Under the pieces are notes generated by a model. The model did no database searches. It worked only from the letters and a program-made list of their open reading frames with translations, and was not told where the DNA came from. From Pseudomonas sp. UBA2684 (GTDB taxonomy: Bacteria; Pseudomonadota; Gammaproteobacteria; Pseudomonadales; Pseudomonadaceae): a stretch of DNA of 64,000 nt. Location: positions 191,298-255,297 of the forward strand of contig DELY01000050.1 of NCBI GenBank assembly GCA_002354655.1, written 5' to 3'. Both the position numbers and the translations under genes were made by a program. Below are positions 4,086 to 23,653 of this stretch, piece after piece. Every line of letters begins with the position of its first letter. Position 1 is the stretch's first letter.

Positions 4086-4099
4086 CGCTCCAACACCCG

Positions 4100-5134
4100 A
4101 TGAAACTCAATCCGGCACAACTCGGCAAACACCTCCAGGGCAACCTGGCGTCGGTGTATGTGGTCAGTGGCGACGAGCCGCTGCTCTGCCAGGAAGCTTG
4201 CGACGCTATTCGCGCCGCCACTCGCCAGCAGGGTTTCAGCGAACGCCAGGTGTTCAACGCCGAAGCCAATTTCGACTGGGGCAATCTGCTGCAAGCCGGC
4301 GCCAGCCTCTCGCTGTTCGCCGATAAACGCTTGCTGGAATTGCGCCTGCCGTCCGGCAAGCCGGGCGATAAAGGCGCCGCCGCGCTGCTCGAATACCTGG
4401 GCCGCCCACCGGAAGACACCGTGCTGCTGGTCAGCCTGCCCAAACTCGATGGCAGCGCGCAAAAAACCAAGTGGGGCAAGGCGCTGATCGAAGGCGCGCA
4501 GACGCAGTTCGTACAGATCTGGCCGGTCGACGCCCATCAGCTACCGCAATGGATTCGCCAACGCCTGGCCCAGGCCGGCCTGAGCGCCAGCCAGGAAGCG
4601 GTGGAGATGATCGCCGTGCGCGTGGAAGGCAACCTGCTCGCTGCCGCCCAGGAAATCGAAAAACTCAAGCTGCTCGCCGACGATGGTCAGATCGATGCCA
4701 GCACGGTGCATGCGGCGGTCGCCGACAGCGCCCGCTTCGACGTCTTCGGCCTGATCGATGCGGCCCTCAACGGCGAAGCCGCGCACGCCTTGCGCATGCT
4801 CGAAGGATTGCGTGGCGAAGGGGTCGAGCCGCCGGTGATCCTCTGGGCATTGGCCCGGGAAGTCCGCCTACTGGCGAGCATTGCCCAGCAATACGGCCAA
4901 GGCATACCGCTGGAAAAAGCCTTCAGCTCGGCACGCCCACCGGTGTGGGACAAACGCCGCCCACTGGTCAGCAAAGCCCTGCAACGTCTGTCCGCCGCAC
5001 GCTGGGCCGCGCTGTTGCAGGATGCGCAGCAGATCGACGCACAGATCAAAGGCCAGGCGGCCGGCGATCCCTGGAGCGGCCTGAGCCTGCTGACCCTGAG
5101 CATCTGCGGCCAACGCCTGGGCCTGCCCCGCTAG
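4100..5134 (+). CDS. holA: DNA polymerase III subunit delta
   Basis: The delta subunit of the clamp loader opens the beta sliding clamp. The 344-residue product starting MKLNPAQLGKHLQG matches Pseudomonas HolA in length and N-terminus. The in-frame ATG at 4073 adds nine residues of hairpin sequence and is unlikely. The fold is seen in YVVSGDEPLLCQEACDAIR at the N-terminus, and the C-terminal helical region carries the WDKRRPLVSKAL motif. The TAG stop is formed by the first bases of a dispersed repeat (CTAGCAGGC). Confidence 0.95.
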   Translation: MKLNPAQLGKHLQGNLASVYVVSGDEPLLCQEACDAIRAATRQQGFSERQVFNAEANFDWGNLLQAGASLSLFADKRLLELRLPSGKPGDKGAAALLEYLGRPPEDTVLLVSLPKLDGSAQKTKWGKALIEGAQTQFVQIWPVDAHQLPQWIRQRLAQAGLSASQEAVEMIAVRVEGNLLAAAQEIEKLKLLADDGQIDASTVHAAVADSARFDVFGLIDAALNGEAAHALRMLEGLRGEGVEPPVILWALAREVRLLASIAQQYGQGIPLEKAFSSARPPVWDKRRPLVSKALQRLSAARWAALLQDAQQIDAQIKGQAAGDPWSGLSLLTLSICGQRLGLPR

Positions 5135-5190
5135 CAGGCTGTTGAAAAGCTACCAGCGCTGCCATCGCCAACGCTCTCAACGGCCTGCCA
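5131..5190. repeat. Short palindromic repeat starting at the holA stop codon
   Basis: A 60-bp element with inverted ends (CTAGCAGGCTGTTGA at the left; TCAACGGCCTGC near the right). Its first bases CTAG overlap the TAG stop of holA. The interior CTACC-GCGCTGCCAT resembles the interior of the longer copy at 8075-8232. Confidence 0.7.
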
Positions 5191-5274
5191 ACATCCAGAA
5201 CCTGGACTTTTTGCCGGGTGCGGATCATGCTTTGCCCGCCTGCGAACATGCAGGTCATTTCCCGAGGAAACGCC

Positions 5275-5433
5275 ATGGCGAAGAAAGCCAAACGCGGCCC
5301 GAACAAGGCCAAATCCCTGATTGCCCAGCCGCTGTTTCGCTCACGCCAGGAAACGCCCAGCAAAGGCAAAGGCAGCTACCGCCGCGAAGCCTCCCAGCAA
5401 AACTGGGAGGCTTCATACGTTCTGGCGGCTTGA
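5275..5433 (+). CDS. arfA: Alternative ribosome-rescue factor A
   Basis: ArfA enters stalled ribosomes on stop-codon-less mRNAs and recruits RF2 to release the peptide, as a backup to tmRNA. This 52-residue ORF starts MAKKAKRGPNKAK with CGAGGA upstream. It contains the family core PLFRSR, KGKGSYRR and NWEAS near the end. The codons for the last part of the protein lie in and after a perfect 12-bp hairpin at 5386-5414, the hallmark of ArfA self-control by mRNA truncation. The gene lies between holA and a lytic transglycosylase gene, as in other pseudomonads. Confidence 0.93.
   Translation: MAKKAKRGPNKAKSLIAQPLFRSRQETPSKGKGSYRREASQQNWEASYVLAA
5386..5414 (+). promoter_or_regulatory. Intragenic hairpin in arfA
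   Basis: A perfect 12-bp stem GAAGCCTCCCAG / CTGGGAGGCTTC with loop CAAAA lies wholly inside the arfA reading frame, just before its stop codon. In E. coli an equivalent hairpin causes RNase III cleavage or early termination, making a non-stop arfA mRNA whose product is tagged by tmRNA. The same role is inferred here from position and symmetry. Confidence 0.75.
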
Positions 5434-5505
5434 AAAGCCCGCCACAGCCCGCATCTCGCCTCAATCATGCTAAGGTTACCGCCTGCAAAATGTGCCGAGA
5501 CCGCC

Positions 5506-6789
5506 ATGCCTTACCTGCTTCTTCGGGGCCTGTCCCATAGCGTCACCGCCTGCATCCTGCTGTTTCTGACTGCCTGCGCCGAAGCGCCTGCCCAGCCGCT
5601 TGTTGCCGCGCCAGTCACACCCAGCGCAGCATCCACCAGCTCCGCCGCCAGTGTGGCCAGCAGCCCAACTCCGCTGCTCAGCTTCGATGAATGGCGCATT
5701 CTGCTGCGCAGCGATGCCATCGCCGCGGGTATCGATGCCGAGCTGTTCGATCGCACCTTCGCCGGCATCACCCTGGACCCGAATGTGATCAAGGCTGACA
5801 GCAGCCAGCCCGAGTTCACCCGCCCGGTATGGGACTACATCGACGGCGCCGTTTCCGTCTCGCGCATAGCCCAGGGCCGCCTGCTCAAGGCGCAGCATCG
5901 GTCAACCCTGAAAGCCATTCGCAGCGCCTACGCCGTGGACCATGAAGTGCTGATCGCGATCTGGGGCCTGGAAAGCAATTACGGCAGCAATATCGGCAGC
6001 AATAACGTGATCCGCGCCCTCGCCACCCTGGCCTACGACGGTCGCCGCCAGGTGTTCTGGCGCAGCCAGCTGCTGGCTGCGCTACAGATCCTGCAAGCCG
6101 GCGACGGCCCTGTCCAGGGGCTGATCGGTTCATGGGCGGGCGCCATGGGGCAAACCCAATTTATGCCAACCACGTTCAATCAGCATGCCGTGGATTTTGA
6201 TGGCGACGGTCGCCGCGACCTGTGGGCATCCACGCCCGACGCCCTCGCCTCTGCCGCCCATTACCTGCAAGCCTCGGGCTGGGAAAACGGCCAGCCCTGG
6301 GGCTTTGAAGTCAACCTGCCGCAGGGCTTCGATTACGCCCTGGCCGATCCAGAAGTGCGCCGCAGCCTGGCACAGTGGCGCGCCCTCGGGATCAACCCGG
6401 TCAGAGCCATCGATGCCAATGAGCAAAGCCTGGCAACGCTGTTTCTGCCCGCCGGTCATCGCGGCCCAGCCTTCCTGCTGCTGAACAACTTCCGCAGCAT
6501 CCTCAAGTACAACAACTCCACCGCTTACGCTCTGGCTATCGGCCTGCTCAGCGATGCGCTGGATGGCAACCCGGGCGTGCAGGCCGCCTGGCCGCGCAAC
6601 GACCGCCAACTAGGGCGCAGCGAGCGCATCGAACTGCAGGAACTGCTGACCAGCAAAGGCTACGAGCCAGGCCCGGCAGACGGCATCATCGGTGCCAACA
6701 CGCGCAAAGCCGTACGCGCGTTCCAGCAGAGCCTGGGGCAACCCGCCGATGGCTACCCCAGCCATGAGCTGTTGCAGCAACTCAGATAA
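5506..6789 (+). CDS. Lipoprotein lytic murein transglycosylase, MltB family, with peptidoglycan-binding domain
   Basis: Cleaves peptidoglycan glycan strands to 1,6-anhydro-MurNAc ends in the periplasm. The start MPYLLLRG gives a lipoprotein signal (lipobox LTAC); the ATG at 5467 adds 13 unlikely residues. The SLT_2/MltB catalytic domain contains IAIWGLESNYGSN with the catalytic Glu, then GAMGQTQFMPTTF and AVDFDGDGRRDLW. The C-terminus is a PG_binding_1 domain (LQELLTSKGYEPGPADGIIG). Context matches P. aeruginosa PA3992, which I recall as SltB3. Confidence 0.9.
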   Translation: MPYLLLRGLSHSVTACILLFLTACAEAPAQPLVAAPVTPSAASTSSAASVASSPTPLLSFDEWRILLRSDAIAAGIDAELFDRTFAGITLDPNVIKADSSQPEFTRPVWDYIDGAVSVSRIAQGRLLKAQHRSTLKAIRSAYAVDHEVLIAIWGLESNYGSNIGSNNVIRALATLAYDGRRQVFWRSQLLAALQILQAGDGPVQGLIGSWAGAMGQTQFMPTTFNQHAVDFDGDGRRDLWASTPDALASAAHYLQASGWENGQPWGFEVNLPQGFDYALADPEVRRSLAQWRALGINPVRAIDANEQSLATLFLPAGHRGPAFLLLNNFRSILKYNNSTAYALAIGLLSDALDGNPGVQAAWPRNDRQLGRSERIELQELLTSKGYEPGPADGIIGANTRKAVRAFQQSLGQPADGYPSHELLQQLR

Positions 6790-6795
6790 CCGACC

Positions 6796-6817
6796 GCGCA
6801 GCGCCCAAACGCTGCGC
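6796..6817 (+). terminator. Weak hairpin after the transglycosylase gene
   Basis: An 8-bp stem GCGCAGCG / CGCTGCGC with loop CCCAAA follows the stop codon by seven bases. There is no U tract, so it is only a possible terminator. Confidence 0.35.
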
Positions 6818-6949
6818 GCCGGCCCTGCCTCAGCGAGCAACCTGGACCGCACGGCGCCAGCCGGACTGAACGGTCAGCGTCTGTGATAAACTGCGCGGCG
6901 GCCACAAGCCGCCTCGTCCACGGAGCCTCTAGCGGAGCCCAGATTGCCG

Positions 6950-8002
6950 ATGTCCGATACCTCCCCGCCTAAAACCGTCGCCAGCGGCGAAAAATTCCGC
7001 ACCACTCAGGGCATCACCGCGATCAAGGACGGGCAAAAGCGCCGTGCCTCGAGCGAACCCCAGGTGTTCGAACCCAAACCCAAGTGGCTGCGGGTCAAGG
7101 CGCCCGGCGGCAGCCGCTTCGAGGCGGTCAAGCGTAATGTCGGCGAGCACCGCCTGAGCACCGTGTGCCAGGAATCCCACTGCCCGAACATGGGCGAATG
7201 CTGGTCCAACGGTACCGCCACCATCATGCTGATGGGCTCGGTGTGCACCCGCGCCTGCCGCTTCTGTGCGGTGGACACCGGCAACCCCAATGGCTGGCTG
7301 GACCTGGAAGAGCCGCAGAACACCGCCAAGTCGGTGGAGCTGATGGCACTGCGCTATATCGTGCTGACCTCGGTGGACCGCGACGACCTCGACGACGGTG
7401 GCGCCGCGCATTACGCGGCCTGCGTACGGGCAATCAAGGCGCGCACCCCGCAGGTGGTAGTAGAGGCCCTGACCCCAGACTTTGACGGCGATCTGCAAGC
7501 CATCGAACGCGTAGTGGATTCCGGCCTTGAGGTCTTTGCGCAGAACGTCGAGACGGTCAAACGCCTGACCCATGAAGTGCGCGACCCCCGCGCCGGCTAC
7601 GAGAAAACCCTGCGCGCGCTGGAACACGCCAAGCGCCATCGCCCGCAGATGCTGACCAAGACCAGCTTGATGCTGGGCCTGGGCGAGACCGACGAGGAGG
7701 TCATAGAAACCATGGATGACCTGCGCGCCATCGGCGTGGACATCCTCACCCTCGGCCAGTACCTGCAGCCCACGCGCAATCACCTGACGGTCAAGCGCTG
7801 GGTCAGCCCGGAAGAGTTCAATAGGTTCCGCGATATCGGCCTGGCAAAGGGCTTTATGGAAGTCGCCGCCGGCCCACTGGTACGCTCCAGCTACCGCGCC
7901 GACAAGGTATTCGAGAAGAACAACCTGGGCCTGGCCGCCCCGGTGCCCGTACCGGGCCAACACGTCGACAACAACCTGATTCCGACCCTCAATCTGAACT
8001 GA
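6950..8002 (+). CDS. lipA: Lipoyl synthase (radical SAM)
   Basis: Inserts two sulfurs into protein-bound octanoyl groups to make the lipoyl cofactor. It carries both iron-sulfur motifs: the auxiliary cluster [12 protein letters not shown] and the radical-SAM CTRACRFC. The C-terminal [12 protein letters not shown] is typical. The length is 350 residues from ATG 6950. A TTG two codons upstream (6944) is better spaced from GGAG at 6934 and remains possible. It faces lipB, which makes its octanoylated substrate. Confidence 0.96.
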
Positions 8003-8014
8003 TCGGGCCGCACT

Positions 8015-8055
8015 ACGCCTGCCCCTGAGCTTTGCCTGGGGGCAGGCGTTTGTTT
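8015..8055 (+). terminator. Rho-independent terminator of lipA
   Basis: An 11-bp stem ACGCCTGCCCC / GGGGCAGGCGT with a 13-base loop is followed by TTGTTT, directly after the lipA stop. Confidence 0.8.
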
Positions 8056-8074
8056 ATCCGCCCAAGCCATTACC

Positions 8075-8232
8075 AGCAGGCCGTTGAAACATGTAGGCGA
8101 GGCCGCCGAGACAAGGCGCAACGTTAGTAACAGCCTACGGCTGGTCAAAACGGCGAGGAAGCGGACTGGGCTCGCATCCGAGCCTGTTTTTAACGCCGTA
8201 TGGCAACGCAGGTAGTTTTTCGACGGCCTGCT
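8075..8232. repeat. Full-length dispersed inverted-ended repeat between lipA and lipB
   Basis: A roughly 158-bp element with near-perfect inverted ends (AGCAGGCCGTTGAAA at the left; the complement of AGCAGGCCGTCGAAA at the right). It has no coding capacity. Its right end supplies the lipB stop codon, read as CTAG on the minus strand. It is the most complete of at least five related copies in the window. Confidence 0.75.
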
Positions 8233-8884
8233 AGCAGTCTATTACGCCCGCCAGGGTCTGCTGCTGCGCGTAGTCGAGGTGTTTGACCAGTTGCTCACGC
8301 AGCCGGGCACTGACCTCGGAAAACTCCAGCGGACCGTCGAGCAAATCGGCCAACTGGGTGACCGGCATGCCGGCATAGCCGCAGGGGTTGATGCGCTGGA
8401 ACGGTTGCAGATCCATGTCGACGTTCAACGCCAGGCCATGGAAAGAGCGCCCATTGCGGATACGCAGGCCAAGCGAGGCGATCTTCGCCTCGCCCACATA
8501 GACCCCAGGCGCATCGGGCTTGGCATTGGCCGTCACGCCGTAACTGGCCAGGGTCGCAATCAGGCTTTGCTCGATGCGCGTCACCAGCTCACGCACGCCG
8601 AGGGAAGAACGGCGCAGGTCGAGCAACAGGTAGGCCACCAACTGACCGGGACCGTGGTAGGTCACCTGGCCGCCACGGTCGACTTGCACCACCGGGATAT
8701 CGCCGGCAAACAACACATGCTCGGCCTTGCCGGCCTGGCCCTGAGTGAACACCGGCGGGTGCTGCAACAACCAAATTTCGTCCGCCGTTTGCGCGTCGCG
8801 CTCGTTGGTGAAACGCTGCATGGCGTGCCAGGTCGACTCGTAAGCCACCTCACCCAATTCGCGAAAGCCGAGCGGCAGGCTCAT
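8231..8884 (-). CDS. lipB: Octanoyl-ACP:protein transferase
   Basis: Transfers octanoate from acyl carrier protein to lipoyl domains, the first step of lipoate assembly. The 217-residue product has the [12 protein letters not shown] signature at 70-81, catalytic Lys134 (KIASLGLR) and catalytic Cys168 (NPCGYAG). The ATG at 8884 overlaps the ybeD stop by one base (TGATG), so translation is probably coupled. The last codons and TAG stop run into the repeat at 8075-8232. Confidence 0.96.
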
Positions 8885-9162
8885 CACAACACCATGTGTA
8901 CGCGACCGGTGGCACGCAGGTCGACATGAATAGCCTGCAATTGCTCCACCCCGGTGGCGGTGATCAATACCTGCACCGAGAGGTAACGGCCATTGCGGCT
9001 ATCGCGGATCACCAAGGTGGTCGCATCGAGATCGGGCGCATGGCGCTGGATCACTTCGACTATCAGGTCGGCAAAACCTTCGCCAGCATCGCCGATCACC
9101 TTGATCGGGTAACGCTCGCAGGGGAATTCGATTTTTGGGGCTTGAACGTCAGTATCGGTCAT
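8884..9162 (-). CDS. ybeD: YbeD/DUF493 family protein
   Basis: A 92-residue cytosolic protein of the DUF493 family. It has the family motifs [12 protein letters not shown] and [11 protein letters not shown] and an ACT-like alpha/beta pattern. It lies between dacA and lipB, its conserved position in gammaproteobacteria. The function is not established; placement suggests a link to lipoate metabolism or its regulation. Confidence 0.9.
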
Positions 9163-9194
9163 GGGTATCAGCAGGCTTGTGGCCTGTCCAGAGC

Positions 9195-9216
9195 AAAACG
9201 CCCCGGATAGGGGCGT
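9195..9216 (-). terminator. Terminator downstream of dacA
   Basis: A 7-bp stem ACGCCCC / GGGGCGT, read on the minus strand, is followed by TTTT. It lies just after the dacA stop and before ybeD. Confidence 0.6.
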
Positions 9217-9228
9217 CCATGGGCGGAA

Positions 9229-10389
9229 TCAGTTGAACAAACCGTAGAAGAACAGGCGGATGCTATCCCACACGCGGCGGAAGAAGCCACCCTCCTCGAC
9301 GGTCTCCAGCGCCACCAGGTCGGCGCTGTGCACCACTTCGTCGCCCAGTTTGACTTCGACCTTGCCGATGACATCGCCTTGCGCGATCGGCGCGATCAGT
9401 TGCGGATTGAGGGTCATGCCGGCTTGCAGCTTGTCCAGCTGGCCTTTCGGCAGGGTCAAGGTCAGGTCGTTGGCCAGACCGGCCTTGAGCTGACGAGCGG
9501 CACCTTTCCAGACCTGCGCTTGCGCCAGTTCGGCGCCTTTCTGATAGAAGGTACGGGTCTCGAAGAAGCGGAAGCCGTAGGTCAGCAACTTCTGGGTTTC
9601 CGCCGCACGGGCCTGCTCGCTGACGGTGCCGAACACCGAGGTGATCATCCGCGCGCCATCGCGTACCGCCGAAGACACCAGGCAGAAACCAGCCTCTTCG
9701 GTGTGCCCGGTTTTCAGGCCGTCGACAGTCTTGTCGCGCCACAGCAACAGATTACGGTTGGGTTGTTTGATGTTGTTCCAGAAGAACTCCTTCTGCGAGT
9801 AGATCGCATAGTGCTCAGGGTCTTCGTTGATGATCGCGCGGGCCAGGATAGCCATGTCGTGGGCACTGGAGTAGTGCTCCGGGTCCGGCAGGCCGGTGGC
9901 ATTCATGAAGTGGCTGTTGCTCATGCCCAGACGCTCGGCGGCGGCATTCATCATGTCGGCGAAAGCCTCTTCGCTGCCGGCGATGTGCTCGGCCAGCGCC
10001 ACGCTGGCGTCGTTGCCCGACTGGATGATGATGCCGTGCAACAGGTCGCTGACGCTAACCTGGGTGCCAACCTGGATGAACATGCGCGAACCACCGGTAC
10101 GCCAAGCCTTCTCGCTGACCGTGACCAGGTCCTGCTCGCCGATCTGGCCCTTACGGATTTCCAGGGTGGCGATGTAAGCAGTCATCAGCTTGGTCAGACT
10201 GGCCGGCGGCAGACGCTGGTCACCATTGTTCTCCACCAGCACCTTGCCGCTGGCGGCATCCATCAGCACATAGGATTTGGCGGCTAACTGCGGCGGCGAC
10301 GGAATCATCACCTGGTTGGCCCAGGCGACCGGTGCAGTAAGCAGCAGAAGTGACAAGAACAGGCGTTGCGCAAAGCTGGTGATATTCAT
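9229..10389 (-). CDS. dacA: D-alanyl-D-alanine carboxypeptidase, PBP5/6 type
   Basis: Trims the terminal D-Ala from peptidoglycan pentapeptides in the periplasm. The chosen start MNITSFAQRLF gives a clean signal peptide (to VAWA); the longer frame to 10434 adds 15 residues. Active-site motifs are SLTK at 64-67, SGN at 124-126 and KTG at 226-228. A C-terminal beta domain and amphipathic anchor (WDSIRLFFYGLF) end the 386-residue protein. It is downstream of rlpA in the rod-shape cluster. Confidence 0.95.
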   Translation of the reverse strand: MNITSFAQRLFLSLLLLTAPVAWANQVMIPSPPQLAAKSYVLMDAASGKVLVENNGDQRLPPASLTKLMTAYIATLEIRKGQIGEQDLVTVSEKAWRTGGSRMFIQVGTQVSVSDLLHGIIIQSGNDASVALAEHIAGSEEAFADMMNAAAERLGMSNSHFMNATGLPDPEHYSSAHDMAILARAIINEDPEHYAIYSQKEFFWNNIKQPNRNLLLWRDKTVDGLKTGHTEEAGFCLVSSAVRDGARMITSVFGTVSEQARAAETQKLLTYGFRFFETRTFYQKGAELAQAQVWKGAARQLKAGLANDLTLTLPKGQLDKLQAGMTLNPQLIAPIAQGDVIGKVEVKLGDEVVHSADLVALETVEEGGFFRRVWDSIRLFFYGLFN

Positions 10390-10513
10390 CCGTCTCTCGA
10401 AGTTGCTAATGGTCAGACAGGCCCCAAAGGGCAAATTATGGCCTGCCGCAGTGGCAGGAACCGCACACGGGCGGCGTGCTGCTTAGGCAGATGAGCGGCC
10501 AATAAGTGCCGCG

Positions 10514-11518
10514 TCAATCTGCCTTCACCAGTGTTGGCTGGCCGAGATTGGCCAACCGCACACTGTCTTGCAGTTGCTCAGCCTCGCCCTGGCTGTTGAT
10601 CGGTCCCAGGCGCACGCGGTGCAGGATCTGCTGGTTGCGCACCACTGAGCTGATGAACACGGGGGCAGCTACCGTCTCGCTCAACTTGGCCTTGAGCAGC
10701 TCCGCAGCGTCCGGATTGGCGAAGGCTGCCACTTGGAGATACAGGCCAGAGACTGCGACTGAAGCGTTTTTTTTTGCGTCGATCTGCACCGGCAGCACGG
10801 CGGCTGCGTGTTGCTGCGGTGGCGGCGAATACTGTTCGAGCGGCTGCGCCAGCGGTTGCGCGACGGTTTTTATCTGGGCGCTCTGTTGCGGTGCCGCGAG
10901 CACCATCGGCACCGGCTGCCCCTGCTGCGCCCACCACTCGTGCGGGTCGATACCCTCGACCTTGACCCGCGCCGTACCGCTTTCGGCATAGCCGAGTTTC
11001 TTCGCAGCGGCGAAGGACAGGTCGATGATCCGGTCGGAATAGAACGGCCCACGGTCATTGACGCGCAGTACGGCACTCTTGCCGTTTTCCAGGTTGGTCA
11101 CCTTGACGTAGCTGGGTAACGGTAAGGTCTTGTGCGCGGCAGTCATGCCGTACAGGTCGTAGGTTTCGCCGTTGGCCGTGGCCTGGCCGTGGAACTTGGT
11201 GCCGTACCAGGACGCCGGGCCAACCGCCTGATAGCGGCGGGCATCGGGGATCGGGTAGTACTGCTTGCCGAACACGGTGTAGGGGCTGGCCTTGACCGGG
11301 CCGTAATGCGGCATCGGCACGGCATCCGGAATCCGCGAGACGTCCACATCCCACCAGGGCGCGCCATCCTTATGCGGCCGATTGAAATCGGCGGGGCCGG
11401 AAATGCCTGCGCCGGCCTGCACCGGCGCGCTCGGTGGCGGCGTACGCTTGGACGAACAGCTGGCCAGTGCCAGGGCGAGAACCGCATAAGTCGCGAGTGT
11501 GAACGGCAAGCCGCGCAT
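10514..11518 (-). CDS. rlpA: Septal ring lytic transglycosylase RlpA
   Basis: A lipoprotein enzyme that acts on denuded glycan strands in Pseudomonas. The 334-residue protein has a lipoprotein signal (LASC), a double-psi beta-barrel domain (VGPASWYGTKFHGQATANGE, LRVNDRGPF, IDLSFAAAKKLG) and a C-terminal SPOR domain (GLYLQVAAFANPDAAELLK) that binds denuded glycans. The ATG overlaps the upstream mltB stop by one base (TGATG). The stretch before SPOR is rich in Q, P and A and looks like a flexible linker. Confidence 0.94.
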   Translation of the reverse strand: MRGLPFTLATYAVLALALASCSSKRTPPPSAPVQAGAGISGPADFNRPHKDGAPWWDVDVSRIPDAVPMPHYGPVKASPYTVFGKQYYPIPDARRYQAVGPASWYGTKFHGQATANGETYDLYGMTAAHKTLPLPSYVKVTNLENGKSAVLRVNDRGPFYSDRIIDLSFAAAKKLGYAESGTARVKVEGIDPHEWWAQQGQPVPMVLAAPQQSAQIKTVAQPLAQPLEQYSPPPQQHAAAVLPVQIDAKKNASVAVSGLYLQVAAFANPDAAELLKAKLSETVAAPVFISSVVRNQQILHRVRLGPINSQGEAEQLQDSVRLANLGQPTLVKAD

Positions 11519-12537
11519 CAATGCTGCCCTCGCGCATCGACCAGCAACTCGGCCAGCTGATTGACTGCCATGGCGTACATCACGCTGCGGTTATAGCGGG
11601 TAATCACGAAAAAGTTCGGCAGGCCCAGCCAGTACTCGGCCCCTTCGGCACCCTCCAGGCGGAACGCGGTGACCGGCATCTCGGCGTCCAGTGAGTCCTT
11701 GCTCGACCAGCCTAGAGCGCGCAGCTCGGCGACATTCTTCACCGGGTCGAGGCCCTGGGTCAGGCCCTGCTCGACCTGCTCGCCCGATACGCTGGCGGCG
11801 CTGACCACCGGCTCGCCAGGCAACCAGCCATGACGTTTGAAGTAGCTGGCAACGCTGCCGATGGCATCCACCGGGTTGGTCCAGATATTGATGTGGCCGT
11901 CGCCGTCGAAGTCCACGGCATAGGCGCGGAAACTGCTCGGCATAAACTGCGGCAAGCCCATGGCGCCGGCATAAGAGCCTTTCAGATTGAGCGGGTCGAC
12001 CTGCTCCTCACGCGAGAGCATGAGAAATTCGCGCAGTTCCTTGCGAAAGAATGGTGCCCGTGGCGGGTAATCGAAGGCCAGGGTCGACAGCGCATCGACC
12101 ACCCGGTAACTACCGGTATTGCCGCCGTAGAAGGTTTCCACCCCGATGATCGCGACGATCACCTCGGCCGGCACGCCGTATTCCTGCTCGGCCCGCGCCA
12201 GGGTCTGTTCATGTTCGCGCCAGAAATCCACGCCACGGGCGATACGTGAGTCGGTGATGAAGATCGGCCGGTAATCTTTCCAGGGTTTGACCTTCTCCGC
12301 CGGGCGCGAGATGGCATCGAGGATCGCCTGCTTACGCTCCACTTCAGCGAACAGACTGACCAGTTGCTCACTGGCAAAGCCGTAGTCGCGGGTCATCTCG
12401 GCGACGAACTCGGCCACTTGCGGCGAGTTCGTGTAATCAGCGGCAACAGCCTGCTGAGCCAATCCGAACACGCTGGCCAAACCTAGCCAATGTGCATGCC
12501 GTACAGCCCAGCCACGCAGTATGTGCATTGAATTCAT
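11518..12537 (-). CDS. mltB: Lytic murein transglycosylase B
   Basis: A periplasmic lytic transglycosylase. The catalytic region contains VAIIGVETFYGGNTG with the catalytic Glu, then GSYAGAMGLPQFMPSSF and AVDFDGDGHINIW. The chosen start MNSMHILRGW gives an export signal ending QAVAA without a lipobox, so the protein may be soluble. An in-frame ATG at 12564 would overlap rodA. It sits between rodA and rlpA; the PAO1 counterpart is PA4001, which I recall as SltB1. There is no C-terminal peptidoglycan-binding domain, unlike the paralogue at 5506. Confidence 0.92.
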   Translation of the reverse strand: MNSMHILRGWAVRHAHWLGLASVFGLAQQAVAADYTNSPQVAEFVAEMTRDYGFASEQLVSLFAEVERKQAILDAISRPAEKVKPWKDYRPIFITDSRIARGVDFWREHEQTLARAEQEYGVPAEVIVAIIGVETFYGGNTGSYRVVDALSTLAFDYPPRAPFFRKELREFLMLSREEQVDPLNLKGSYAGAMGLPQFMPSSFRAYAVDFDGDGHINIWTNPVDAIGSVASYFKRHGWLPGEPVVSAASVSGEQVEQGLTQGLDPVKNVAELRALGWSSKDSLDAEMPVTAFRLEGAEGAEYWLGLPNFFVITRYNRSVMYAMAVNQLAELLVDARGQH

Positions 12538-12545
12538 AACCCCAA

Positions 12546-15577: not shown

Positions 15578-15590
15578 CGGCTACTGCTGA

Positions 15591-16058
15591 TTATTTGTGA
15601 TAAGGATGGCCGGACAACACGGTCCAGGCACGGTAGATCTGTTCGCCGATCAGTATCCGCACCAACGGGTGCGGCAAGGTCAGCGGCGACAACGACCAGC
15701 GCTGCTCGCTACGCGCCTGCACCTCCGGCGCCAGCCCTTCCGGGCCACCGACCATGAGGTTGACGGTGCGCGCATCCAGGCGCCACTTATCCAGCTCGGC
15801 GGCCAATTGATCGGTGCTCCACGGTCGCCCTTCGACTTCCAGGGTGACGATGCGTTCCCCCGGCCCGACCTTGGCCAACATGGCGTCGCCTTCCTGACGC
15901 ATCATCCGCGCCACGTCGGCATTCTTGCCGCGCGTGGTCAGCGGAATTTCCACCAATTCCAGGGCCAGCTCGGTCGGCATACGCTTGGCATATTCCTGCC
16001 AACCGTCTTCCACCCAACGCGGCATCCGCGAGCCCACGGCAATCAATTTGATGCGCAC
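15591..16058 (-). CDS. rlmH: 23S rRNA pseudouridine-1915 N3-methyltransferase
   Basis: Methylates pseudouridine 1915 in helix 69 of 23S rRNA. A GTG start at 16058 gives [15 protein letters not shown] and a 155-residue SPOUT methyltransferase, the usual family length; the open frame upstream does not look like the family. The knot region carries LMVGGPEGL and the C-terminus ends [14 protein letters not shown]. It lies 11 bp after rsfS. Confidence 0.95.
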
Positions 16059-16069
16059 CGCCGTCGCCC

Positions 16070-16456
16070 TTATTCGTGATCCGGGCCTTGTCCAGGCGCG
16101 TGCAGGGCACGGCTTTGTTCGGCGCCCTGCCACAGACGCTCGAGGTCGTAGAACTGACGAGCGGTCGGCAGCATGACGTGAACGACGATATCGCCCAAGT
16201 CGAGCAAGGCCCACTCGCCGCTGTCCAGGCCTTCGCTGCCCAGCGGACGCACGCCCTGTTCCTTGACCTTTTCCAGCACGTTGTCGACCAGCGACTTGAC
16301 GTGGCGGCTGGAGGTGCCGCTGGCGATCACCATGAAATCGGTGATGCTGGTCTTCTCGCGCACATCGATGGTGGTGATGTCTTGCGCCTTGACGTCTTCC
16401 AGAGCAGCGATGGCCAGTTTGACCAGGTCTTCGCTGAGCATTTTTGGGTTCTTCAT
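16070..16456 (-). CDS. rsfS: Ribosomal silencing factor RsfS
   Basis: Binds L14 of the large ribosomal subunit and blocks subunit joining in starvation. The start [14 protein letters not shown] gives 128 residues with the DUF143 core ([38 protein letters not shown]). The longer frame to 16510 would overlap nadD and is not favoured. The nadD-rsfS-rlmH order is conserved. Confidence 0.94.
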
Positions 16457-16478
16457 AAGTAACTCGTTTGCCTCGTGT

Positions 16479-17138
16479 TCAGTTCGACGCACGGTACAGC
16501 CCGTGCGCATGGATATAGGCCAGTACCGCGTCAGGCACCAGAAAACGTACCGACTTTCCGCTCGCCAGCAGCGCGCGGATCTGGGTGGCAGACACCGCTA
16601 ACGGTGTCTGCCAGATAAAAGAAATCTGCCCACTCGGCCCATTCAGGGCCAGCGGGTCACTCACGCTACGTGCCGCCAACAGGTTGCGCAGGGTGTCCGA
16701 GGCTTCGCTATCGGCATCCGGACGCTGCAACACCAGGATATGACAGTGTTCCAACAACGCGTCCCAGCGATGCCAGCTCGGCAACCCGCAAAAGGCATCC
16801 CAGCCCAACAGCAGAAACAACTGATCGTCGGCCGCCAACTCGGCGCGCAACGATTCCAGGGTATCGATGCTGTACGACGGCTTGGCGCGCTTGAGCTCGC
16901 GATCATCCACGCTCAGCGGCGGCAAACCGGCCACCGCCTGCTCGACCATGGCCAAGCGATCACTCGCCGCGACCTGCGGCGTGTCACGGTGCGGCGGCCA
17001 TGCGCTGGGAATCAGACGCAACTCGTCGAGCGCCATGAACTCCGCCACTTCCAAGGCGCCGCGCAGGTGACCAATGTGCACCGGATCGAACGTGCCGCCG
17101 AAGATGCCGATGCGTCGGGCGCCGCTGCGTTTAGCCAT
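16479..17138 (-). CDS. nadD: Nicotinate-nucleotide adenylyltransferase
   Basis: Makes deamido-NAD from nicotinate mononucleotide and ATP. The nucleotidyltransferase signature [16 protein letters not shown] is near the N-terminus, followed by [13 protein letters not shown] and the C-terminal SATQIR motif. Length is 219 residues. The start overlaps the proA stop by eight bases. Confidence 0.95.
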
Positions 17139-18399
17139 TCTGCCCGCGCAGTTGACCGTCGCCGATCACCACATATTTTTCGCAGGTCAGGCCCTCCAGG
17201 CCGACCGGGCCACGGGCGTGCAGCTTGTCCGTGGAAATGCCGATCTCCGCGCCGAGGCCGTACTCGAAGCCATCGGCGAAACAGGTCGGGGTGTTGAGCA
17301 TCACCGAACTGGAGTCGACCTCGGCGAGAAAACGCCGGGCTTGCCCCTGGTGTTCGGTGACGATCGCATCGGTGTGGTGCGAACCGTAGTGATTGATGTG
17401 CTCGATGGCCTGCTCCAAACCGTCGACCACGCGGATCGAGAGGATCGCCGCCAGATACTCGGTGTGCCAATCCTCTTCGCTGGCCGGCGTGGCCTCGATC
17501 AGCGCACAGCTGCGTGCACAACCGCGCAACTCGACACCCTTGGCGCGGAGGCGCTCGGCCATGCCCGGCAGGAAGTCGGCGGCCACGGCCTGATCGACCA
17601 GCAAGGTCTCCATGGCGCCACAGATGCCGTAGCGGTAGGTCTTGGCGTTGAACGCGATGTCCTGCGCCTTGGCCAGGTCGGCATGCGCGTCGACGTAGAC
17701 GTGGCAGATGCCGTCGAGGTGCTTGATCACCGGCACCCGTGCCTCGCGACTGATGCGCTCGATCAGGCCCTTGCCGCCGCGCGGCACGATCACGTCGACG
17801 AACTCCGGCATGCTGATCAGCGCACCCACGGCGGCGCGGTCGGTGGTGTCCACCACCTGCACGGCGGCAGCCGGCAGACCCGCCTCGGCCAGGCCGCGCT
17901 GGATGCAGGCGGCGATGGCGCGGTTGGAATGAATGGCTTCCGAACCGCCGCGCAGGATGGTGGCGTTGCCGGACTTCAGGCACAGGCTGGCGGCGTCGAT
18001 GGTCACATTGGGCCGCGACTCGTAAATGATACCGATCACCCCGAGCGGCACGCGCATCTTGCCGACCTGAATCCCGGACGGGCGGTAGCTCATGTCGCGG
18101 ATCGCGCCGACCGGGTCGGGCAGGCTGGCGACCTGGCGTAGGCCTTCAATCATGCCGTCGATGCGTGCCGGGGTCAGCGCCAGGCGATCGAGCAGCGCCG
18201 GCTCCAGACCATTGGCACGGCCAGCGGCGAGGTCCTGCTCGTTGGCCGCGCCCAGCTCGGCGCGCGCAGCGTCCAACGCGGCGGCGGCGGCTTGCAGGGC
18301 ACGGTTCTTCTGCGCGGTACTGGCGCGGGCGACCACGCGCGAAGCTTGGCGGGCGGCCTGTCCCAGGCGGGTCATATAGTCGAGCACGGACTCAGTCAT
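17131..18399 (-). CDS. proA: Gamma-glutamyl phosphate reductase
   Basis: The second step of proline synthesis: NADPH-dependent reduction of gamma-glutamyl phosphate to the semialdehyde. The start [17 protein letters not shown] gives 422 residues, the standard length. The catalytic Cys lies in [13 protein letters not shown], with [16 protein letters not shown] and PRGGKGLI also visible. The frame continues upstream to 18597 without family features. It is first in a run of minus-strand genes extending to dacA. Confidence 0.96.
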
Positions 18400-18707
18400 G
18401 GGCTGCGGAGGTCTGGCTGGTGGAAAAAGTTGCTGATTATAGCCGGCACGCCGCCCCACGCCCAGCAGTGCCGGGCGGATGGTAAACAGTCCGTGCAATC
18501 GGGCCCGCCGGTAACGCCACCAGGCAACGGTCTGCGGCCACCTGGCACGAGACGGTGACACCCGCCCACACAGCCCGCCCGAAGGTTGGGTAAACAAAAC
18601 CAGCGCAGATGTTTACCTTCAATTCGGGTGCGGGAAAAACCGCGCCCAATGCCGGCGCCGTTAGCCGCAGCCCCATAAAAAGGCGGTTCACCGCCGGAGT
18701 GTTCGCC
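18400..18707. other. Divergent intergenic region before the hydrolase gene
   Basis: About 300 bp separate proA from the plus-strand hydrolase gene. Open frames here extend the neighbours but show no recognisable protein features. Promoters for both directions are expected, but I see no clear consensus. Confidence 0.4.
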
Positions 18708-19937
18708 ATGCGTTACCGCACCGACTACAGCGCCGCGCGACTCAGCGCCGCCCCGCAAGTGCTCGAACTCGGCTCCTGGCGCCTGCATTACCAGGCGTAC
18801 GCCACGCACAGCCACGACCGGCGCGCCCCGGTATTGCTGCTCGGCGGAGCATTCCAAAGCTTTCGCTCGTTCGCCAATGAAGTCAGCGAATTACTCACCG
18901 AACACCCGGTGATCCTGCTCGACCTGCCCAGCCAGGGCGGCAACCCGCAACTGGCAGCGGAATTGGGCCTGGAGCAGTTGGCCGACTTGATCGCCGCCTT
19001 CGCCGCCGAATTACAGCTGCCGCCGCTGATGCCCATCGGCCTGTCCTACGGCTCGGCCCTGGCCGCCCTGTTCGCCGCGCGCCACCCCAGGCATTGCGCC
19101 CGCCTGCTACTCGCCGGCATCAGCGCCTTTGGCCGCCCCGGTGCCCGCCTGCTGCTGGAAGAGAGCCTGGCACTGCTCGCCGAAGGCCGCAGCGACGCCT
19201 TCGCCCAAGGCGCCTTGACCGGCCTGCTCAACCCGCTGCGCCTGCACGAGACCGGGGTTGCCCCGGTATTTCGCAAAGCCTTGCTGCGGCAGATGCAGCG
19301 CCTGACGCCGAGCGAAGTCGAGCGTTACCGGCAAAACAGCCAGCGCCTCCTGGATTTTCCGGGGTTTGCCGGCCACCCGGCGTGTCCGACCCTGGTGCTG
19401 GCCGGCGAATACGACCACTTCACCCAACCGTGGGAACATGCGCACTTTGCCGCCGCCTGCGCCGACGCCACCTGTGCAGTGATCCACAACGCCGACCACC
19501 TGGCCCAGTTCGAGCGCCGCACAGCCTGCGCGGCGCTGTACCACCCGTTCCTGCGCGGCGAAACGCTGCCGCCACGCAGCGCCGGCGCCACACGCCTGGC
19601 GCGCCACCAGTTACTGAACCTGGAGAAACGCCACGAGGCGCGCCTGACACCCAGCAACCGACGCGCCCGACTGCGCCACAGCGACGCCGGCGAATGGTCG
19701 GTGGAGATCGCCGAACTGGGCTTTTTCGGCGGATTGCTGCACGGCGCACTGCCCTCTCAACTGCCGGTTCGCGGCTGGCACCTGCTCAACGGCGAGCTGC
19801 CCGCACAGCCCATCTTGCCGTTACGCCACAGCGGCAGTGGCCTGGCCTTCGTCTTCCCACACAGCGACGCCCAAGCCAGCAGCGCTTTAGCCGCCCAATT
19901 CAGCGCCCAGTCCTTGCCCGCCGTCGCCTGCGCGTAA
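18708..19937 (+). CDS. Alpha/beta hydrolase, RhlA-like, with C-terminal extension
   Basis: A 409-residue protein with no signal peptide. Residues 1 to about 280 form an alpha/beta hydrolase: PVLLLGGAFQSFRSFANE, VILLDLPSQG, nucleophile elbow GLSYGS, acid region AGEYDHF and His in HNADHL. The layout resembles RhlA, which makes hydroxyalkanoyloxy-alkanoates. The last 120 residues carry RRARLRHSD and ELGFFGGLLHG, loosely like PilZ motifs (RxxxR; D/NxSxxG), but degenerate. The start has GGAG upstream. The substrate is unknown. Confidence 0.75.
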   Translation: MRYRTDYSAARLSAAPQVLELGSWRLHYQAYATHSHDRRAPVLLLGGAFQSFRSFANEVSELLTEHPVILLDLPSQGGNPQLAAELGLEQLADLIAAFAAELQLPPLMPIGLSYGSALAALFAARHPRHCARLLLAGISAFGRPGARLLLEESLALLAEGRSDAFAQGALTGLLNPLRLHETGVAPVFRKALLRQMQRLTPSEVERYRQNSQRLLDFPGFAGHPACPTLVLAGEYDHFTQPWEHAHFAAACADATCAVIHNADHLAQFERRTACAALYHPFLRGETLPPRSAGATRLARHQLLNLEKRHEARLTPSNRRARLRHSDAGEWSVEIAELGFFGGLLHGALPSQLPVRGWHLLNGELPAQPILPLRHSGSGLAFVFPHSDAQASSALAAQFSAQSLPAVACA

Positions 19938-20003
19938 GCGCGCCGCGCGCCGAAGCAAACATCGCCAGCGGCGCGGACACCGCGGCGAATTCAGGGGACG
20001 CGT

Positions 20004-20048
20004 CTAGCAGGCCGTTTTTAGCCCAGTATCGGCAACGTAGCCTGCTAG
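20004..20048. repeat. Minimal palindromic repeat at a methyltransferase stop codon
   Basis: A 45-bp element with perfect 9-bp inverted ends (CTAGCAGGC / GCCTGCTAG) and the shared interior GGCAACGTAG. Its right end holds the TAG stop of the minus-strand methyltransferase gene. It is a short member of the family seen at 5131 and 8075. Confidence 0.7.
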
Positions 20049-20899
20049 AGACTGGCCTGGATAACCCGCACCAGCCCCGGCGTACGCGCCGGCTGCAAGC
20101 CCAGGGCGGCAGCCTGGGCGCTCGGGTCGAACACCTCGACCTGGCGAAAACCGCAGCGTTTGAAGCCGGCGACAATCTCTTCACCATTGCGGTAATGCAG
20201 GGGATAGCTACCGCGAGTCAGCCGGCCCACCAAATCCACGCCCCAGCGCAGCTGCCGATAACGCGGATGCTCGCGCAGGTCCGGGTACAGTTCGGTCAGA
20301 TAGGTCGCCTGCGGAAATGCCGCGAGCTGCTCGGCCAAACGCGTCCAGAACGCCTCGATCAGCGGCAACTCGAAGTAGTTCACCAGGCCCTCGGTAATCA
20401 CCAGAATCGGCTCGCGATGGTCGAGGCCGGCGAACAAGGCCGCCAGGCTCTTGCCACCGCGCTCGGCGAGAATGTCCACCGCCTTGACCTGGTGGCGCCC
20501 ATCCAGCCAGCCCTCGCCGTGCAGCAGCAGACGCTTACGCGCGGCCATCGCCGGCAGGTCAGCCTCGAGGTACTGCAACTGAGGATAACGCGCGCTGAAA
20601 CGCCGCCCCCGCGGCGACAAGCCACAGGCGATTTCAACCACCTGGCGCACGCCGCCCTGCTCGATAGCCGCCGTCAGCTGCGCATCGATCTGTAAATGCC
20701 GTTGCAGCAGAATATGCTCGATGTCCAGGCCGAAACCGACCCGCGCGCCCCAGGCGATCGGCGCCAACAAGCCGTGCACAAGGCGCCCGAACGCGGTGAC
20801 GAAAGCCGGTTCGGCCAACTGATGGCGGTACCAGACATAACCGGTGTAATGCGCACTGGGGCTGATATGCGCACTGCTGACGCGGGCACGTTCAGACAT
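20045..20899 (-). CDS. SAM-dependent methyltransferase, LCM-like (COG3315)
   Basis: A 284-residue protein from MSERARVSSAHISPSAHYTG. It resembles the leucine-carboxyl/polyketide O-methyltransferase group: HILLQRHLQIDAQL, a SAM-binding QVVEIACGLSPRGRRF, YLEADLPAMAARKR and the typical ITEGLVNYF followed by FWTRLA. The longer frame to 21118 would cross the divergent mpg start and is rejected. The methyl acceptor is unknown. The TAG stop lies in a dispersed repeat. Confidence 0.82.
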   Translation of the reverse strand: MSERARVSSAHISPSAHYTGYVWYRHQLAEPAFVTAFGRLVHGLLAPIAWGARVGFGLDIEHILLQRHLQIDAQLTAAIEQGGVRQVVEIACGLSPRGRRFSARYPQLQYLEADLPAMAARKRLLLHGEGWLDGRHQVKAVDILAERGGKSLAALFAGLDHREPILVITEGLVNYFELPLIEAFWTRLAEQLAAFPQATYLTELYPDLREHPRYRQLRWGVDLVGRLTRGSYPLHYRNGEEIVAGFKRCGFRQVEVFDPSAQAAALGLQPARTPGLVRVIQASL

Positions 20900-20963
20900 G
20901 CTTAAGGCTCTTATTGTTATGATCGCGCCCAGCCTATGCCCTGCCGCCGAGCGGTGACACCAC

Positions 20964-21680
20964 ATGCCACACGAACCCATCCTTAGTTTGCCCTGGCCAA
21001 CGGCCCAGCCTCTGGCGGCGAGCTTTTTCGACCGCGACGCGCGGCTGCTCGCCCGCGAACTGCTCGGCAAGGTGATTCGCCACCGCGTCGGCGAGCACTG
21101 GCTGGCCGCGCGGATCATCGAGACCGAGGCCTACTACTGCGCAGAGAAGGGCAGCCACGCCTCGCTGGGCTACACCGAGAAACGCCGCGCGCTGTTTCTC
21201 GATGGCGGGCACATCTATATGTATTACGCACGCGGTGGCGACTCGCTGAATTTCAGCGCGCAGGGGCCAGGCAATGCCGTGCTGATCAAATCCGCGGCGC
21301 CCTGGCTCGACCGTCATTCGGACGCCGCCAGCCTGGCGCAGATGCACGCCAACAACCCGGACGCCCACGGCTTGCCGCGCCCGCTGGAGCGGCTGTGCGC
21401 CGGGCAGACCTTGCTGTGCAGGGCCCTCGGCCTGAAAGTCACGGACTGGGATGCGCAACGTTTCGATACGCAGCGCCTGTTCGTCGACGACGTTGGCGAG
21501 CATCCCACTCCCGTTGTGCAGACCACTCGCCTGGGCATTCCCGCCGGGCGCGACGAACACCTGCCCTACCGTTTCGTCGACGCCGCCTTTGCCCGCCAGT
21601 GCACGCGCAACCCGCTGCGCCGTGGCCAGGTCGAAGGCCGCGACTACCACCTACTCCATCCCGAGGATGCGCACCAATGA
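20964..21680 (+). CDS. mpg: DNA-3-methyladenine glycosylase, AAG/MPG type
   Basis: Excises alkylated purines to start base-excision repair. The 238-residue protein has the AAG fold motifs LARELLGKVI, RIIETEAYYC with the catalytic Glu, HASLGYTEKR, IYMYYARGG and CTRNPLRRG. It is divergent from the methyltransferase and overlaps the next gene by four bases (ATGA). Confidence 0.93.
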   Translation: MPHEPILSLPWPTAQPLAASFFDRDARLLARELLGKVIRHRVGEHWLAARIIETEAYYCAEKGSHASLGYTEKRRALFLDGGHIYMYYARGGDSLNFSAQGPGNAVLIKSAAPWLDRHSDAASLAQMHANNPDAHGLPRPLERLCAGQTLLCRALGLKVTDWDAQRFDTQRLFVDDVGEHPTPVVQTTRLGIPAGRDEHLPYRFVDAAFARQCTRNPLRRGQVEGRDYHLLHPEDAHQ

Positions 21681-22993
21681 GCCAGTGGCTCGACACGCTG
21701 ACCACCTGGCTGGCCGCCAACCCACAGTGGCTGGGCCTGGCAATTTTCCTGATCGCTTGTATCGAATGCCTGGCAATTGCCGGGATCGTCGTGCCAGGCA
21801 CCATTTTGCTGTTCGCCGTCGCCGTGCTGGCCGGCAACGGCGCGCTGACACTCTGGCAAACCCTGGCCCTGGCCTACTGCGGCGGCCTGCTCGGCGACGC
21901 CCTGTCGTACGCGGCCGGGCGTTACTTCCACCAGGACATCCGGCGCCTGCCGGGGCTGCGCCAGCACCCGCAATGGCTGGCCGGGGCCGAAAACTACTTC
22001 CAGCGCTATGGCGTCGCCAGCCTGCTGGTCGGCCGCTATATCGGCCCGCTGCGCCCGATGCTGCCGATGGTCGCCGGCATGCTCAACATGCCGCTCGGAC
22101 GTTTTATCGCGGTCAGCATGCTCGCCGCCGCCGGCTGGGCGGTGGCCTATATGCTGCCGGGCTGGGCCACTGGCGCGGCGCTGCGCCTGCCCCTACCGGA
22201 AGGCTTCTGGTCGCAAGCCGCGCTGCTCGCCGGCGGCCTGGCTCTGCTGCTGGTGATCAGCGTGCAGAGCAGCCTGCGCGAACAACGCCACGCCAGCCTG
22301 ATCGCCGCCGGCCTGAGCCTGCTGCTGTTGCTCGGTCTGTTCATCGGCTGGCCACACCTCAGCCAGCTCGACCAGGGCCTGCTCGCCCTGGTTCAGGAAC
22401 AACGCAGCGCCAGCCTCGATAGCCTGATGGTGCTGATCACCCGCCTCGGCGATTTCTCCACGCAACTGGCCGCGGGCGTGTTGCTCTGTCTGTTGCTGCT
22501 GGTGGCCCGGCAATGGCGCGCGGCGATGTTCGCGGGCAGCGCCCTACTGGGCACGGCTCTGGCCAACGGTGCCCTCAAAGCCCTGTTCGCGCGCCACCGG
22601 CCGGAGGTTTTGCTGGAACCGCTGAGCAGTTTCAGCTTTCCCAGCGGTCACAGCTCGGCGGCGTTCGCCTTCTTTCTGGTGCTCGGCGTACTGGCCGGCC
22701 GTGGCCAACCGGCACGCCTGCGCCTGACCTGGTTACTCTTGGCAGCACTACCGGCGCTGGCGATTGCCTTGTCCAGGGTGTACCTGGGTGTGCATTGGCC
22801 CAGCGACATCATCGCGGGCGCTTTGTTGGCCGGCGGTCTGTGCGCCCTCAGCCTGGGCCTGACGCAATGGCAAACCGCGCTGAGCGCGCTGCCGGCAAAA
22901 GCCTGGTGGCTGATCCTGCCGGCGTGCATCGGGCTGCTCGGCGCCATCGCCACCTGGCAACTGTCGGAAGGGATACTGCTGTACCGCTATTGA
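21677..22993 (+). CDS. DedA-PAP2 fusion membrane protein
   Basis: A 438-residue protein. Residues 1-210 are a DedA/SNARE-associated domain (IECLAIAGIVVPGTILL, GGLLGDALSYAAGRYF, VGRYIGPLRPMLPMVAG), related to polyprenyl- or phospholipid flippases. The rest is a PAP2 phosphatase with all three motifs: KALFARHRP, FPSGHSSA and SRVYLGVHWPSD. About ten membrane spans are visible. A role in undecaprenyl-pyrophosphate or phosphatidate recycling is inferred. It is translationally coupled to mpg. Confidence 0.9.
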   Translation: MSQWLDTLTTWLAANPQWLGLAIFLIACIECLAIAGIVVPGTILLFAVAVLAGNGALTLWQTLALAYCGGLLGDALSYAAGRYFHQDIRRLPGLRQHPQWLAGAENYFQRYGVASLLVGRYIGPLRPMLPMVAGMLNMPLGRFIAVSMLAAAGWAVAYMLPGWATGAALRLPLPEGFWSQAALLAGGLALLLVISVQSSLREQRHASLIAAGLSLLLLLGLFIGWPHLSQLDQGLLALVQEQRSASLDSLMVLITRLGDFSTQLAAGVLLCLLLLVARQWRAAMFAGSALLGTALANGALKALFARHRPEVLLEPLSSFSFPSGHSSAAFAFFLVLGVLAGRGQPARLRLTWLLLAALPALAIALSRVYLGVHWPSDIIAGALLAGGLCALSLGLTQWQTALSALPAKAWWLILPACIGLLGAIATWQLSEGILLYRY

Positions 22994-22999
22994 AACAAC

Positions 23000-23071
23000 C
23001 GCACAGGCCAGGCGTGTGCCGTCTCAAATAACGCCGCACCGGCAACGCAGGTCGTTTTCAACGGCCTGCTA
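23000..23071. repeat. Partial palindromic repeat at the LON-domain gene stop codon
   Basis: Read on the minus strand it runs CTAGCAGGCCGTTGAAAA, then CCTGCGTTGCC and GGCGTT, matching the inner blocks of the 8075-8232 copy. The leading CTAG supplies the stop codon of the LON-domain gene. The distal end next to the PAP2 gene is degenerate. Confidence 0.65.
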
Positions 23072-23653
23072 GCCCTCACCCTGCAACTGATCGAGCAAGG
23101 CTTGCAGCAGGACCAAACGCTCCTGCGGCGCGTCGAGGGCCAGCAGTTGGAGTTTCTGCTCGGGCGCCAGAGGCAGCAGGTAGGCCAGTTGGTTAGCCAA
23201 TGCCGACTGGTCGTTGACCGCCTCGCTCATGCCCAGCGCGGCCACCAGCGGGTGCTCGGCCAGGGCGCTGAGCAGCGCGAGCAAATCGGCATGTTCGGCA
23301 CGCAACGGCGACGGCGACGCCTCGTCCAACCAGTCGACCTCGGCCATGGTCAGTTGGTCGGGCAATACCTGGGCGCGCTGCACCTTGAACCGCCGCCCAC
23401 CCTCGACCCGAATCCCCAGCAAGCCGTTGGGTCGCTGCTGAAAATCACTGATGCGCGCCTCGCAGCCCACCGCGGCAAAACGCTCGGCGGCTTCGCCGAC
23501 CTCCGCGCCCTCGACGATGCAGACCACGCCAAAGCCTTCGCCCTGCTTCATGCAGCGGCTGATCATGTCCAGATAGCGCGCCTCGAAAATCTGCAGGTCG
23601 AGCATGCAGCCGGGGAACAGCACGGTATTCAGCGGAAACAATGGCAGGTTCAT
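23069..23653 (-). CDS. LON substrate-binding-domain protein (no protease domain)
   Basis: A 194-residue protein starting MNLPLFPLNTVLFPGCMLDL, a typical stand-alone Lon N-terminal domain (LON/PUA-like). It contains IFEARYLDMI, FGVVCIVEG and NGLLGIRVEGGRRF. The ATPase and Ser-Lys protease domains of Lon are absent, which is normal for this family. The role is unclear. It lies close to lrgB on the same strand. Confidence 0.9.
   Translation of the reverse strand: MNLPLFPLNTVLFPGCMLDLQIFEARYLDMISRCMKQGEGFGVVCIVEGAEVGEAAERFAAVGCEARISDFQQRPNGLLGIRVEGGRRFKVQRAQVLPDQLTMAEVDWLDEASPSPLRAEHADLLALLSALAEHPLVAALGMSEAVNDQSALANQLAYLLPLAPEQKLQLLALDAPQERLVLLQALLDQLQGEG

Follow-up and report, generated by a model that had tools for sequence, protein, structure and literature searches.

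The palindromic repeats that adjoin the stop codons of four genes in a 64,000-nt stretch of Pseudomonas sp. UBA2684 (contig DELY01000050.1, positions 191,298 to 255,297; hereafter the window) are, with a probability that we put at about 0.88, miniature inverted-repeat transposable elements (MITEs) of the IS5 type that are moved by an ISPst12-like transposase, that target the motif YTAR (Y, pyrimidine; R, purine) and whose hits on stop codons are harmless. The observations comprise the terminal repeats, the duplicated YTAR flanks, a relative's autonomous element that has the same ends, empty sites at two of the genes, and an excess of elements on stops. An ISPst12-like DDE transposase would recognise in trans the terminal repeat CAGGCCGTTGAAAAA that it has in common with the MITE, cut YTAR with a 4-base stagger, and insert the element, so that YTAR would be duplicated at both sides. 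Because TAR reads TAG or TAA and the gene-side YTAR copy keeps the stop in frame, the protein would be unchanged by an insertion on a stop, and since genes contain little YTAR and seldom retain an insertion, surviving copies would gather between genes and on stops. In the window, genes, as called by a simple codon-usage script rather than curated annotation, cover 90% of the sequence, yet only 26 of the 85 YTAR sites lie in coding DNA. Repeats sitting on stop codons follow in the ordinary way from a mobile element of an already known kind, and the earlier observation of such repeats is partly confirmed.

The repeat family exceeds chance by far. With up to three mismatches allowed, the 4.83-Mb draft genome has 104 places that match its 18-base end, CTAGCAGGCCGTTGAAAA, whereas the reversed control matches at 5, and a similarity search of the genome with a 164-base query (window positions 8073-8236) gave 56 matches. 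The listed places from both searches were merged into 76 clusters, all of which were fetched; inverted ends pair in 51 of these and do not in the remaining 25, with chance matches in coding DNA among both kinds. For two relatives, G255 and G180, the loci were the best 30 of 54 and the best 30 of 60 places by fewest mismatches, plus one more (L241). Together the three genomes yielded 96 oriented elements, a few of them chance pairs, which are short, non-coding, and bounded by terminal inverted repeats; 35 measure 140 bp and 7 measure 52 bp, within a range of 39-256 bp, the lengths of three from the window's genome (L062, L064, and L101) being unreliable as they contain runs of N, presumably scaffold gaps. 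By eye, the 52-bp form looks like the outcome of a deletion between two copies of ACGGCCT. A second subfamily, with the end CAGGCTGTTGAAAAACTAT, has many copies in G255 (e.g. L271-L273). Of 298 genomes searched within the genus, 36 contain the exact 20-base YTAR-plus-end, and the MITE as query matched one plasmid record (40% covered) and no phage. We recognised no description of this family in a search of the open-licence literature, mostly represented below full-text level. The family is a further IS5-type MITE with a terminal repeat of its own.

The four bases flanking the element ends are mostly YTAR, namely CTAG at the window copies and CTAA, TTAG, or TTAA at others. Both flanks are YTAR in 24 of 49 pairs in the window's genome, 20 of 27 in G255, and 24 of 28 in G180, and among these they are identical in 14 of 24, 17 of 20, and 18 of 24 cases, as compared to shuffle means of 6.1, 6.0, and 10.9, respectively. 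Identity is found in 49 of the 68 both-YTAR pairs and lies above the shuffles in each of the three genomes. The remaining both-YTAR pairs differ by transitions at the outer positions only, as would be expected from the decay of old insertions. We also considered a duplication of TA alone (2 bp), the Y and R then being part of the element, but dropped it because the flanks agree, by eye, beyond TA. A 4-bp YTAR duplication with CTAG as the commonest form is what is described for the IS5 group: IS5 duplicates Py-T-A-Pu, mostly CTAG (PMC5493358), and YTAR is given as the IS5 motif (PMC10359306). The initial annotation came close in suggesting insertion at a stop codon with possible recognition of CTAG; the target is YTAR, which is duplicated on insertion.

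An autonomous partner was sought by a DDE_Tnp_1 search of six end-rich relatives, and a 1331-bp element with the same ends as the MITE is present in G255. Eleven candidate stretches were fetched from this genome, nine of which have both ends exact and perfect 4-bp duplications (CTAG in five, TTAG in two, CTAA in one, and GTAG in one) and differ from the L242 copy by at most two bases; in the remaining two, which have diverged, a single end is still recognisable. Against the IS5 model NF033581, which has a cut-off of 140, the transposase reaches 264 bits, and it carries DUF772 and DDE_Tnp_1. Five Pseudomonas plasmid records match the element at 99-100% identity, and four of them are annotated as ISPst12 family. 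ISPst12, of the IS5 family, is therefore like the MITE in its terminal repeat and in its 4-bp YTAR-type duplication, whereas it differs in its length, its transposase gene, and its interior. Five of ten end-bearing genomes searched with the ISPst12-like element gave a match, which was full-length in G255 and G078 and consisted of pieces in G288, G082, and G270; none was found in the window's own draft genome, G180, G113, G123, or G063. An autonomous relative with the same ends is thus provided by G255 and G078. The window's genome has two DDE_Tnp_1 genes, with no matching ends nearby, the sole end-like hits, in L139, having three mismatches. The MITE copies of this genome are orphans in the present draft, unless they go with some ISPst12 relative that the searches did not reveal, and we infer that the ISPst12 transposase or a relative of it moved them.

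The element need not bring the stop codon with it, because G014, the best-matching relative at holA, ends both holA and lipB in CTAA where the element is absent. At holA, alignment with G014 at offset 0 gave 48 of 64 identical positions in the left flank and 55 of 110 in the right flank, the other 24 offsets giving at most 45; at lipB, an insertion or deletion lies downstream. No element was found in the 75 bases after the stop in 29 holA and 29 lipB loci, out of 58 relatives searched, and the stops vary among these loci. The suggestion that the element carries a stop codon is therefore not supported at these two genes. The proposed comparison of orthologous loci delivered empty sites at holA and lipB. 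The LON gene in G014 ends in GTAA, which is not YTAR, and the methyltransferase gene had no match reported in the relatives' stretches compared.

Outside called genes, 36 of 90 elements lie exactly on a stop (16 of 38 in the window's genome, 5 of 25 in G255, and 15 of 27 in G180), compared with 91 of the 612 non-coding YTAR sites of the same stretches that carry no element, which corresponds to a pooled odds ratio of 3.8 (p = 1e-7) and to odds ratios of 3.7 (p = 0.0003), 2.5 (p = 0.12), and 7.2 (p = 3e-5) in the three genomes. One of the background counts of YTAR sites on stops was 66 of 405, which was used for the tests, a separate count giving 69 of 405. For the window's genome, 39 of 52 rows were kept, those with YTAR next to the element on one or both sides; chance pairs (L083, L097, and L107) were dropped, and two more of the rows removed (L065 and L073) lie on stops. 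For G255, 25 of 33 rows were kept, six dropped pairs involving ISPst12 ends and one of these being on a stop, and for G180 27 of 28, the dropped L305 being on a stop. One kept element of the window's genome lies inside a called gene and is outside the 90, and the 25 unpaired clusters were left out, though one of them (window 23069) is on a stop. The near-constant position on a stop, which had been noted in the window and holds for all four copies there, gives way over the three genomes to a majority of elements, 54 of 90, away from stops, although the match with stops still exceeds that of non-coding YTAR sites. At three loci (L094, L275, and L288), two convergent genes both take their stop codons from a single insertion, each from a different target copy.

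Another possibility is that stop codons or gene 3' ends are actively preferred beyond what YTAR and selection would bring about, through DNA structure or the ending of transcription or translation. The excess on stops could be read in this way, as could the pooled odds ratios near a facing gene end, which are 1.9 (p = 0.02) within 60 bp and 2.4 (p = 0.002) within 100 bp; within 200 bp the value is 2.7 (p = 0.0002). However, the odds ratio within 30 bp is 1.7 (p = 0.13), the excess in G255 is not significant, and of the nine ISPst12-like copies, which should have suffered fewer losses, just one (L243) coincides with a called stop, so that we regard an active preference as unlikely. Much of the stop surplus is a shift toward gene ends, where stops make up most of the YTAR sites, and selection against insertions in promoters and operons would suffice for such a shift; a mild extra preference for stops may come on top of it. 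Since most elements lie elsewhere, the 30-bp odds ratio is not significant, and orientation is random, target-site choice together with survival of harmless insertions is the reading that we prefer, and the stop excess was presumably made by selection and not by active targeting of stops.

Several observations weigh against the ISPst12-like reading. ISPst12 has no match in the window's draft genome or in G180, so that the mover there is unseen, and the interior of the MITE outside the terminal repeat is, by eye, unlike that of ISPst12. The GTAG at one ISPst12-like copy falls outside YTAR, and in the window's genome 10 of 49 pairs have YTAR on neither side (2 pairs in G255 and 1 in G180). The lipB genes of L171 and L188, whose proteins score above that of G014, end in TGA. 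Finally, the stop excess in G255 taken alone has a p of 0.12.

The orientation of the elements bears on whether they might be a terminator device of the host placed after genes. Of the gene contacts, 20 have the CTACC arm nearest to the stop and 19 have it farthest away, so that the direction common to the window copies, which had been described as a shared 3' direction, is due to chance, and a one-directional transcript-end device as the cause of the position is rejected. Three 140-bp elements, one of them on both strands, fold as a single long hairpin (z -7.9 to -9.3), and an A-run, a stem, and a T-run are present in most subfamilies. Between 4900 and 23300 in the window, 33 terminator-like sites were found versus 13.3 in shuffles, with hits inside three of the four window elements (8167-8186, 5155-5175, and two overlapping at 23032-23050), of which only that at 8167-8186 has an unbroken five-T tail, the tails of the others being weaker. 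While a terminator effect of the elements is possible judging from these motifs, the T-run is broken in the GAAATC subfamily, and a GC-rich stem followed by a T-run is thus not found in all copies. In addition, most copies are off stops, and none of the 29 relatives shown for holA or the 29 for lipB has an element after the gene. A host terminator is therefore very unlikely to be what these repeats are, and a function in ending transcripts does not account for their position.

Window copies fold less distinctly than the 140-bp elements (z -3.1, -2.3, and -3.1). In an alignment of 31 distinct 140-bp elements out of the 96, RNAalifold predicted 44 pairs, 13 of them with changes on both sides. 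The covariation score of a hand-drawn fold of 46 pairs was 0.157, whereas shuffles gave 0.072 and slid partners no more than 0.053; two pairs of this fold never form, and further pair types numbered 20 versus 21.0 in shuffles, which is no excess. When the 44 RNAalifold pairs were counted with 5/136 replacing 39/100, the 29 inner pairs had 101 alternative Watson-Crick cells versus 22 uncompensated ones, and the 15 terminal-repeat pairs had none versus 29, although these cells, having ancestry in common, are not independent events. The inner palindrome thus stays paired in copies that have diverged, through compensatory changes, and unpaired intermediates are few. Inner pairing could be kept either by selection on the fold or by template switching that copies one arm onto the other. 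In quasipalindrome correction, template switching copies one arm of a palindrome onto the other, which is the plain alternative here.

Four of the 76 clusters (L084, L089, L093, and L122) match the interior without the terminal repeat of the family. L122 and L084 are bounded by inverted repeats some 20 bases long that resemble GAGAGCCTGCCCACGATCTG (about GAGAGCCTG..ACGATCTG), L093 ends in GGCAGTCCCTTGC, and L089 has no clear ends; L084, L122, and L093 sit on contigs C26, C41, and C29 of the window's genome. Since L084 and L122 on the one hand and L093 on the other carry at least two other terminal repeats, which are unrelated, the core accompanies more than one end type, as if it were carried by different transposon families. 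It is conceivable, if doubtful, that the inner palindrome is an independent unit: a DNA or RNA fold under selection, spread by several transposases as a hitch-hiker and coming to rest on stops, where it would serve element upkeep or gene-end structure.

Dispersed palindromes in a pseudomonad-like genome also bring to mind repetitive extragenic palindromic (REP) elements, which are common in pseudomonads (PMC2817692), and REPINs, moved by a REP-associated tyrosine transposase (RAYT). The present repeats have a 4-bp target duplication, which REPs are not known to leave, and have ends in common with a DDE element of the IS5 family, which makes this explanation highly improbable. Closer is MITEPsy1 of P. 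syringae, a small IS5-like MITE that has a 4-bp duplication of CTAG or YTAA and was shown to move; it differs in its length of 100 bp, its terminal repeat GGAAGGTCTGAAAAAGCC, and its proposed parent, ISPsy2 (PMC3189936). R0, R2, and R6 of P. fluorescens are likewise palindromic repeats dispersed between genes and show a tail-to-tail bias; two of them, R0 and R2, have ends in common with insertion sequences, and R6, of 177 bp, is compared here by description rather than by sequence (PMC2718517). MITEAba12 of Acinetobacter, also a short MITE, is mobilised by an insertion sequence that shares its host; it measures 113 bp and has a 9-bp duplication and other ends (PMC6382973). In the main text of a 2024 review of prokaryotic MITEs, the term 'stop codon' is absent (PMC10969869).

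The ISPst12-like MITE reading offers a one-step explanation for a common sequence at the ends of unrelated genes, and indicates that, where the target motif of a transposon includes a stop codon, even a genome densely packed with genes can be invaded while the genes stay intact. Annotators are cautioned that such repeats are not to be taken for regulatory signals. A comparison of fresh insertions with survivors would provide a system to gauge how far selection alone places mobile elements.

In the window, CTAGCAGGC has exact matches at 5131 (+), 8226-8234 (-), 20004 (+), 20040-20048 (-), and 23064-23072 (-); with one mismatch it occurs 31 times versus 20.7 expected, 2 of 100 shuffles being as high, which on its own is a weak over-representation. 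The in-frame stop TAG lies within CTAG beside a repeat in four called genes, 4073-5134 (+), 8231-8887 (-), 20045-20899 (-), and 23069-23680 (-), which are four of the nine called genes of the window with a TAG end. Their Pfam matches (DNA pol III delta, LplA/B catalytic, leucine carboxyl methyltransferase, and LON substrate-binding) bear out the names given initially, i.e. holA, lipB, a methyltransferase, and a LON-domain protein. That all four end at a repeat holds true, but the CTAG is the flanking target copy and lies outside the element, and the lengths given before as 45, 60, and about 158 bp become 37, 53, and 154 bp. Nor does each repeat contain all of the inner blocks attributed to it, the copy at 20004 lacking GTTGAAAA and that at 5131 having some blocks only.

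Table 1. Element copies and target copies adjoining the four genes (window positions).
Feature	Position	Strand	Remark
Target copy CTAG, left	5131..5134	+	5132-5134 = stop codon of holA-like gene
Shortened MITE, 53 bp	5135..5187	+	Right flank 5188-5191 = CCAA (decayed copy)
Far target copy	8073..8076	-	Now CCAG on + strand
MITE, 154 bp, both terminal repeats present	8077..8230	-	
Target copy CTAG	8231..8234	-	8231-8233 = stop codon of lipB-like gene
Target copy CTAG	20004..20007	-	
Shortened MITE, 37 bp	20008..20044	-	
Target copy CTAG	20045..20048	-	20045-20047 = stop codon of methyltransferase-family gene
MITE remnant, one end only	~23030..23068	-	Far end unrecognisable, start approximate
Target copy CTAG	23069..23072	-	23069-23071 = stop codon of LON-domain gene

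An Rfam scan of the window at gathering score gave 0 matches. The longest inverted repeat pair of the window is one of 39 nt (39853-39891 and 48230-48268), 97% complementary and 8338 nt apart, which could be the ends of a larger mobile segment.

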